Source: Oceanibaculum indicum P24
Lineage (GTDB): Bacteria; Pseudomonadota; Alphaproteobacteria; Oceanibaculales; Oceanibaculaceae
Length of the DNA stretch: 62,913 nt
Assembly: GCF_000299935.1 (NCBI RefSeq)
Contig: NZ_AMRL01000023.1
Location: 1 to 62,913 of the forward strand
Reading direction: 5' to 3'
Every line of letters starts with the position of its first letter. The stretch's first letter is position 1. Both the position numbers and the translations under genes were made by a program. Below the pieces are notes generated by a model, which saw only the letters and a list, made by a program, of their open reading frames with translations, ran no database searches and had not been told where the DNA came from. Below, one piece after another: positions 38,599-40,629 of this stretch.

Positions 38599-39108
38599 TC
38601 AGCGGCAGGCGCCGATTGAGTCTTCGCCGCAGCGTCGCTTGCCATCGATCCACAGCGCGCCGCGCAGATCGGCCCGGAAGAAATCCGCGTCCCGGATGTC
38701 CGCACCGGTAAAGTCCGCCTCGCGCAGGATCGCGTTATGGAACCGGGCGCGCGACAGGTTGGCGCCTTTCAGCGAGGCGCCGGTCAGGTCGGCACGGGAG
38801 AAGTCCGCATAGGTGAAGCGCCCGCCATCCAGCGAGGCGCCCGGCATCCTAGTTTCCAGGAACAGCGCCCGGTTGGCATCGGCCTCGCTTAGATCGGCCC
38901 CGGCGATGTCGCTGCGGTTCAGGTTGGTCTGCCACAGGGTCGCCTTCGTCAGGTTAGCGCCGGGCATCTCCTGCCGGCTCATATTGCAGTTCCGCCAATC
39001 CACGCCCGGACCGGGCGGATCGCCGCAGCCCGCAAGGGCGGGGGAGGGGGCAAGCGACACCGCTGTCAGCGCCGCCAGCAGGAAGGAAAGGCCGATGATC
39101 TTCTTCAT
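38599..39108 (-). CDS. Exported pentapeptide-repeat protein
   Basis: 169 residues from the ATG at 39108. A signal peptide or lipoprotein-like leader covers about 1-22 (MKKIIGLSFLLAALTAVSLA, then PSPALAGCG). The rest is about 20 pentapeptide repeats of A(D/N)LxX type (ANLTKATL, ADLTGASLKGANLSRARF, ADIRDADFFRADL), which fold as a right-handed beta-helix. The short N-terminal CGDPPGPGVDWRNCNMS holds two cysteines that could pair. Function is unknown. The frame remains open upstream to 39456, but that extension runs through the structured block at 39282-39478 and is not credible. Confidence 0.87.
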   Translation of the reverse strand: MKKIIGLSFLLAALTAVSLAPSPALAGCGDPPGPGVDWRNCNMSRQEMPGANLTKATLWQTNLNRSDIAGADLSEADANRALFLETRMPGASLDGGRFTYADFSRADLTGASLKGANLSRARFHNAILREADFTGADIRDADFFRADLRGALWIDGKRRCGEDSIGACR

Positions 39109-39281
39109 TGCCAGCCAATGTAGCGCCTCCCGGTCCGCTTGCAATGTTCGAGGGGTATTTCCGCCGTCCCGTCCGCGGTCTTCTGGCCGCGACATGCTGT
39201 TCCGGCGCAATAGCCCTATGGGGCCATGCCAGGCAAACCACCTTATCTGGTTGTTGCGAGACGCCGATTCTGATAAAAAGC

Positions 39282-39478
39282 AGAGGCGTCGAGGATGTAG
39301 GCGATAATCGCCCGGCCCGGGAAGGCACGTCCTCGACGCCTCTCTTTTCGGGGCCGGAGGCGGGCCGCAAGCGACCGCCGGAACCCCAGACGCAGAAACC
39401 GTCATTCTCTTTGCGCTGTCCGGTGCGGGGCACCAGGCTGGGCGACAGCTTGGCACGGAGCCGCCCGGCCGACAGCGC
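39282..39478 (+). ncRNA. Candidate structured RNA of unknown class
   Basis: Three compact folds follow one another. (1) 39282-39343: a 17-pair stem of 39282-39298 with 39327-39343 (one G-U), enclosing a 13-base hairpin GGCGATAATCGCC. (2) 39350-39387: a GC hairpin of GGGGCC and GGCGG with their complements, capped CGCAAGCG. (3) 39413-39478: a three-way junction with P1 8 bp (39413-39420 with 39471-39478), P2 5 bp (39422-39434) and P3 9 bp (39436-39444 with 39462-39470). The two non-Watson-Crick pairs are G-U on the plus strand but A-C on the minus strand. T-runs flank element 1 on both sides, so strand and ends are uncertain. Confidence 0.35.
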
Positions 39479-39900
39479 GCAAGATCTCCCGCAAGTCATG
39501 CCGCCCCGTCATCGCCGTCGTTGGGCCACGAAGGAACCCGGACCGGCGCGACCGCTGGCATGCCCCTTCCCCTCGGTGCCGGTCCGCCTGATCGGCTGAA
39601 CCGGACCGCGCGGTTCCGCTATCCACCATCGCCGCTGGCGCGGCGCGGTTTCCAAGCGGGCGGGTGGCGGTGCGATTCTATGGATCGTTTCCGAACAGGC
39701 CGTTTCCGGCCATCTGGTCCCGATCAGCCAGCGGGGGCCGGTAACCGGCCTGCCGCCAGCATGGCATTAACATCGCCCTGTGCCATGACGCCTACTGCGC
39801 TGGAATCAAGTCTGTCGGAATTTCATTGCCCTGGCAACGAAAAATCGGTATTAATCAACCAATTTATCGCAAGAAAAAGTTACTAAATTTCACTAACGGT

Positions 39901-40038
39901 TTTTCCACAGGCCCTTCCATTTGTACCCAAGCCGCATCCTCGCGAAAAATCATTCCATGGCTGTGTGTTGCGCCTCTGGCTGGCGTCCAAGGCGCGGTTT
40001 ATCCACAGCGGTGGATAATGTTCGGCAAAAAATCCACA
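39901..40038. other. Cluster of DnaA-box matches, candidate origin element
   Basis: TTATCCACA (perfect) at 39999-40007; its inverted partner, one mismatch, at 40010-40018, so that TTATCCAC and GTGGATAA face each other; TTTTCCACA (one mismatch) at 39901-39909; and AAATCCACA (two mismatches) at 40030-40038. An A/T-rich stretch (39830-39905) adjoins on the left. This is the only such cluster I found in the window. It could be oriC, a DnaA-titrating site or DnaA control of the sdh operon. Confidence 0.45.
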
Positions 40039-40230: not shown

Positions 40231-40629
40231 ATGCAGTCCGGCGGGAAGGCGGCACGGCCGCTATCACCCCATTTGCAGATTTACCGTCCGCAGATTACCT
40301 CTGCGCTGTCGATCCTGCACCGCATCACCGGCGTCGCACTCTCGGTCGGCACGCTGATGCTGACCTGGTGGCTGCTGGCCGCTGCGGCTGGCCCTGATCA
40401 TTTCGCGCTGGCGCACGGCTTCATCACCTCCTGGCTTGGCTGGCTGCTGCTGCTGGGCTGGTCGGTGGCGCTGTTCTATCACCTGTCCAACGGCATCCGG
40501 CATCTTGCCTGGGACGCCGGCTGGGGCTTCGAGCTGCCGCAGGTGTACAAGAGCGGCTATGCGGTGCTTGCCGCCACGGTGATCCTGACCGCCATCGCCT
40601 GGGGCGTTGGCCTCTCGATGGGGAGCTGA
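40231..40629 (+). CDS. sdhC: Succinate dehydrogenase cytochrome b556 subunit
   Basis: 132-residue membrane subunit of complex II with three hydrophobic helices. RPLSPHLQIYRPQITSALSILHRITG is the SdhC signature: the SxxSIxHRxTG block carries Ser and Arg of the quinone site. The haem-ligand His is in FYHLSNGIRHLAWD. First gene of sdhCDAB; sdhD starts 3 bases after its stop. Confidence 0.95.
   Translation: MQSGGKAARPLSPHLQIYRPQITSALSILHRITGVALSVGTLMLTWWLLAAAAGPDHFALAHGFITSWLGWLLLLGWSVALFYHLSNGIRHLAWDAGWGFELPQVYKSGYAVLAATVILTAIAWGVGLSMGS

Follow-up and report, generated by a model that had tools for sequence, protein, structure and literature searches.

The large orphan structured RNAs OLE, ROOL and GOLLD extend over hundreds of nucleotides and adopt elaborate structures, and the CsrB-type titration RNAs are arrays of repeated hairpins carrying GGA-containing motifs. 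Oriented DnaA boxes are found off oriC in the datA, DARS1 and DARS2 loci of E. coli, which are noncoding chromosomal clusters of such boxes and act as DNA sites, changing the nucleotide state of DnaA with IHF/Fis. In the Alphaproteobacteria, a noncoding RNA beside DnaA boxes has been described in Caulobacter crescentus: CcnA, 182 nt long and presumably under activation by CtrA, lies inside the hemE-linked oriC, where it overlaps weak DnaA boxes; its C-rich (CCCC) loop pairs with GGGG close to the beginning of target mRNAs (PMC8959179). CcnA is thought to link replication and the cell cycle.

The element described here was found in a 62,913-nt stretch of Oceanibaculum indicum P24 (contig NZ_AMRL01000023.1), the whole of which we call the window. 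Like CcnA, it appears to specify an alphaproteobacterial noncoding RNA beside DnaA boxes, but by description the two are set apart: the window RNA, at a predicted ~560 nt, is longer, lies off the origin indicated by GC skew and outside any hemE-linked origin, has its boxes ahead of it and carries a conserved 3' three-way junction. As at datA and DARS, the boxes form an oriented noncoding cluster away from oriC, yet here they go together with a structured RNA that covaries and has a predicted promoter of its own. Large size and elaborate structure recall OLE, ROOL and GOLLD, from which the window RNA differs in its DnaA-linked setting and in matching no Rfam family, while repeated-hairpin arrays with GGA-containing motifs occur, as in CsrB-type RNAs, in some of its relatives. 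The sequence comparisons make it fairly probable that the whole represents a structured noncoding RNA family that is new and whose promoter is linked to DnaA, expression and control by DnaA being predictions of this reading.

Structure, strand and extent of the element

An intergenic gap of 1.1 kb, with a pentapeptide-repeat gene running leftward on one side and sdhC running rightward on the other, holds the element, which is single-copy in the 3.95 Mb draft genome of its host. The product of the pentapeptide-repeat gene (window 38599-39111), which adjoins the 3' end of the RNA, looks like a secreted protein. An earlier sequence-only reading had described three RNA-like folds at 39282-39478 in a stretch with no credible gene. 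The folds are present, and the block as a whole is more stable than its dinucleotide shuffles on either strand (z of -3.70 on the plus and -4.44 on the minus strand; 0/200 shuffles as good in both cases). Fold 1 alone (39282-39343) reaches a z of ~-6, and the third fold was recovered as a three-way junction over 66 nt, as described (z -2.87 plus, -4.13 minus). None of the open reading frames across the element region is kept in frame in the three congeners, and a protein gene was rejected on that ground. Parts of the earlier reading had to be revised. Fold 1, taken to be a stem over a smaller hairpin, is itself a three-way junction, in which a perfect 14-bp P1 encloses two small hairpins and the arms lengthen to 22 nt at 86% complementarity; and the three folds, taken to be independent, are instead the 3' part of one longer, predicted noncoding transcript of the minus strand.

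That the earlier reading could match the block to none of tmRNA, RNase P RNA, 6S, SRP RNA or a familiar riboswitch agrees with a search of the window against Rfam 15, in which no family, these classes included, reached its gathering threshold. No Rfam family matched at the element in the relatives, and no published description of such an RNA was found in a search of the open-access literature; the family is absent from Rfam and previously unlisted. Identity with 6S RNA was rejected, a probable 6S RNA of the host genome being located elsewhere (G000:C5:188894-189053, locus L108; 42.5 bits, below the Rfam cut-off of 46.4). A TPP riboswitch at the edge of one related locus (L191, 75-174) is unrelated to the element.

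The RNA gene lies almost certainly on the minus strand, an assignment on which four comparisons of sequence and fold agree. Read as minus strand, the paired positions of the relatives' alignment (A6) comprise 47 G-U vs 19 A-C cells, and those of P1 alone 7 vs 0, contrary to the G-U pairs from which a plus-strand RNA had been proposed. Within 500 nt 5' of the junction there are 92 C(UUCG)G loops on the RNA strand vs 14 on the other, against a background of 108:104. At least six T in the 16 nt following P1 on the minus strand are found in 41/52 loci vs 3/52 control positions. Finally, congener G001 keeps the three-way junction of the third fold on its minus strand; its plus strand adopts a different fold there.

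As to extent, identity drops away ~25 nt beyond P1 in nearly all compared pairs of relatives, which marks the 3' limit; on the 5' side of the junction it persists for hundreds of nucleotides among close relatives. The position homologous to the conserved promoter of the relatives would place the start of the window RNA at ~39836, so that it probably runs from there to ~39275, a length of ~560 nt (Table 1). P1 and the U-tract provide the stable stem and following U-run of an intrinsic terminator, and the conserved three-way junction inside the stem exceeds what such a terminator needs.

Table 1. Coordinates, in the window, of the element, its parts and the divergent neighbour
Feature	Position	Strand	Remarks
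Whole RNA gene (predicted)	39275..39836	-	~560 nt; 5' end ~39836, 3' end in T-run ~39275; 5' limit predicted
U-tract after P1	39274..39281	-	terminator-like; RNA strand reads GCTTTTTA; T5-6 unchanged among four species
Terminal three-way junction (fold 1)	39282..39343	-	P1 39282-39295 with 39330-39343; P2 39315-39326; P3 39300-39312; homologues covary strongly
P0 hairpin (second fold)	39350..39387	-	directly 5' of P1; in relatives' P0, 79-90% of cells paired
Internal three-way junction (third fold)	39413..39478	-	minus-strand fold the same in G001
Conserved apical loop of a hairpin within the third fold	39449..39459	-	UCCGUGCCAAG; core invariant in four congeners
AT-rich promoter region (predicted)	39838..39900	-	candidate -35 TTGCGA 39867-39872; candidate -10 ~39844-39849, weak in the window
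DnaA-box cluster	39901..40018		39901-39909(+), 39999-40007(+), 40010-40018(-); weaker box at 40030
sdhC (divergent neighbour, outside the element)	40231..40629	+	named from relatives and the sdhC-sdhD-sdhA order

Covariation, distribution and the hairpin body

Across four Oceanibaculum species fold 1 is the best-conserved part, its inner sequence being invariant and its stem compensated. A covariance model, R1, built from four Oceanibaculum minus-strand sequences (congener G003 is O. pacificum, NZ_LPXN01000106) picked up similar elements in further loci of the Rhodospirillales type, where they lie for the most part on the minus strand and 0.75-1.4 kb upstream of sdhC. The arms of P1 could be placed by a pattern search in 17 loci, nearly all of which show P0 (of the GGAGCC-UGGC-CGGCUCC type) followed by P1 (GAGGCGUC[AG]GG / CC[UC]GACGCCUC), the latter closing a junction that contains two fast-varying hairpins. 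A loop resembling UGCC[CA]AGG, comparable to the conserved apical loop of the third fold, was spotted by eye in several relatives.

Compensatory changes in the stems, for which the sequence-only reading had proposed to search related genomes, proved abundant. In an alignment of the 17 relatives made from sequence only, 84.3% of paired cells hold, a share that falls to 37-49% once partners are shifted by 1-3 columns; covariation scores 0.345 vs <=0.115 after shifting, and 20/32 pairs show two-sided changes. In 53 distinct rows aligned with the model, 90.0% of cells are paired, the covariation score is 0.441 and two-sided change is seen in 29/32 pairs, values that lean toward the model to which these rows were fitted.

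With a second model, R2 (E <= 0.01), 40/385 sampled alphaproteobacterial genomes were matched, usually with one copy each. The RNA family recurs across many alphaproteobacterial families, and ~90% of the sampled genomes of the class have no detectable copy. Among 398 genomes sampled evenly from the phylum, the sole match was the window's own genome. A few genomes contain two copies of the unit (L208 and L228 in G186, L197 and L227 in G307, L217 and L220 in G010, L205 and L223 in G313); DnaA boxes lie beside every one of these, and both G186 copies are minimal and all but lack a hairpin body.

The body of the RNA, 5' of the junction, consists of hairpins in which UUCG tetraloops abound on the RNA strand and which mostly end where the DnaA boxes start; Oceanibaculum has few such loops. 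Body length varies widely, the boxes lying from ~100 nt from P0 (L208, L228) up to >1 kb away (L204, L213, L215). At L227 (4128-4474) a 33-nt sequence, GGGTCGGGAAGCCTTCGGGCGGAACGGTCCACC, repeated 10.5 times in tandem, forms the body; each copy is a UUCG hairpin with a GGGAA/GGAAC internal loop. An 18-nt tandem repeat, CCGGTTTCCATTTTGGGC, in 6.9 copies lies on the 5' side of the RNA unit at this locus (L227, 3526-3650). Since L208 and L228 are minimal and have no array, the array is inessential to the unit. That the array serves as binding or titration sites seems to us less likely than not. CsrA is encoded in 0/4 Oceanibaculum genomes and in 14/39 RNA-positive genomes; a CsrA sponge was rejected because csrA is absent from Oceanibaculum, and CsrA is not a general partner of the RNA family.

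DnaA boxes, promoter and competing explanations

DnaA boxes, counted as at least one box within one mismatch, are present at the 5' end of the RNA in 39/39 loci of the class, usually together with an AT-rich stretch. The sdhC gene lies 0.8-4.3 kb away on the 5' side in 21/39 of these loci, the remainder having other neighbours or lying near a contig end. The boxes therefore accompany the RNA and not sdhC. Their density beside the RNA is 1.55 per kb at sdhC loci and 1.53 per kb at the others, compared with 0.10 per kb in the flank background and 0.36 per kb upstream of sdhC genes lacking the RNA. An sdhC leader, or regulation specific to sdhC, was rejected on these grounds: the unit occurs without nearby sdhC, and boxes are sparse upstream of RNA-less sdhC.

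The arrangement of boxes and putative promoter is likewise conserved. A TTG, belonging to the predicted -35 element, begins exactly 29 nt past box 1 in 27/35 alignable loci, whether or not sdhC is a neighbour. The box-1-aligned consensus of the 35 loci is ..TGTGGATAA N3 TGTGGATAA .. TTATgCACA agAAttTt .. TTG; a GATACT/TATACT-like -10 often comes next, with a GNRA-type hairpin after it. Congener G001 has TTGATA-N17-TACAAT at the place matching the window promoter. The succession of box, TTG and -10 reads as a predicted σ70-type promoter. Structure, strand, family, the DnaA-box association and this promoter spacing were all obtained by computation; transcription of the RNA, its control by DnaA and any action in trans we infer from them. 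Of these, DnaA-linked control of the RNA seems to us rather likely.

The main rival to a function exerted through the RNA is a DNA function of the datA/DARS type, in which the cluster itself would bind or remodel DnaA and the transcript would matter mainly through transcription passing through or away from the boxes. In most lineages tandem boxes 11-12 nt apart are joined by an inverted box at fixed spacing, as would suit such a site, given that the datA and DARS clusters depend on box orientation and spacing (PMC5742627); Oceanibaculum keeps the boxes and departs from this canonical geometry of its relatives. The location off the skew origin fits as well. A DNA site would nevertheless leave unexplained the covariation, the G-U bias, the strand asymmetry of the UUCG loops and the conservation of the 3' junction, and we consider this explanation unlikely.

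A box cluster with an AT-rich stretch also resembles oriC, and the element could in principle be a secondary or ancestral DnaA-dependent origin, its unwinding region adjoining a transcribed structured RNA. GC skew disagrees with this identity, a skew minimum being absent from the element in G001, G002, G302 and G359. In G001 the sign of the skew reverses on contig 1 at ~190 kb, at PPRP/hemE/hemH/rho, ~125 kb from the element; in G002 it flips near hemE, ~90 kb from the element; in the single-contig G302 the flip falls at ~0.48-0.69 Mb and the element at 3.98 Mb (~0.8 Mb or more apart); G359 shows no flip in the surroundings of the element. The genes hemE, PPRP, hemH and rho were looked for in the element loci and were not found. 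Because the skew puts the origin elsewhere, at hemE in two relatives, the element is not oriC by this test; a second origin is very unlikely. The PPRP-hemE gaps of G001 and G002 contain weak DnaA boxes only, which speaks in favour of a second origin, and the element may therefore have a DnaA-handling role. The G001 region C1:185001-198000 (L160), with maf, PPRP, hemE, hemH and rho at the skew flip, is the canonical alphaproteobacterial origin neighbourhood.

A plus-strand RNA, for which it may be said that this strand folds well too, was rejected as scarcely credible in view of the G-U/A-C and UUCG asymmetries, the side of the U-tract and the comparison with G001. Equally improbable is a repeat or mobile element, or a mere bidirectional terminator hairpin, as the long inverted repeat, flanked by T-runs, and the tandem hairpins of some relatives might suggest: the scattered repeat pattern named at the outset as speaking against an RNA is not what is seen, the element being single-copy, syntenic with sdhC in over half of the class loci, conserved in junction and promoter and matched by no plasmid or phage; moreover its flanking genes diverge, which leaves no annotated gene that the hairpin could terminate.

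A possible RNA arm of the DnaA system

On the reading of the element as a DnaA-linked RNA, a σ70-type promoter in the AT-rich stretch, directly downstream of the DnaA-box cluster, would start the minus-strand transcript. Transcription would then cross the body of tetraloop-capped hairpins, differing in number by species, and end in P0 and the conserved three-way junction, followed by the U-tract. The terminal element would most likely act as a terminator, a 3' cap and a specific protein or RNA binding site, and the body would most likely offer binding sites many times over, whether as RNP scaffold or as titration array. Because the promoter abuts the DnaA array, synthesis of the RNA would track DnaA or the replication state. 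Beyond this, we advance only tentatively, as a possibility short of even likelihood, that a DnaA-controlled promoter drives a hairpin-array RNA with feedback on the initiation of replication or on the cell cycle, so that in many alphaproteobacterial families the DnaA system would have an RNA arm. In this context TCCC is found within the junction in 25/47 cases vs 12.7 (sd 3.0) in shuffled sequences, a bias that may recall the CCCC loop of CcnA and is only a lead.

The analysis adds an Rfam-absent structured RNA family with very strong covariation and a fixed arrangement with an off-origin DnaA-box array. The family suggests a large structured RNA tied to replication control, and yields testable predictions as to strand, start, end and DnaA dependence. 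Should control by DnaA hold true, it would give direct access to the way bacteria convey replication state to gene expression, a question that CcnA in Caulobacter has barely opened.
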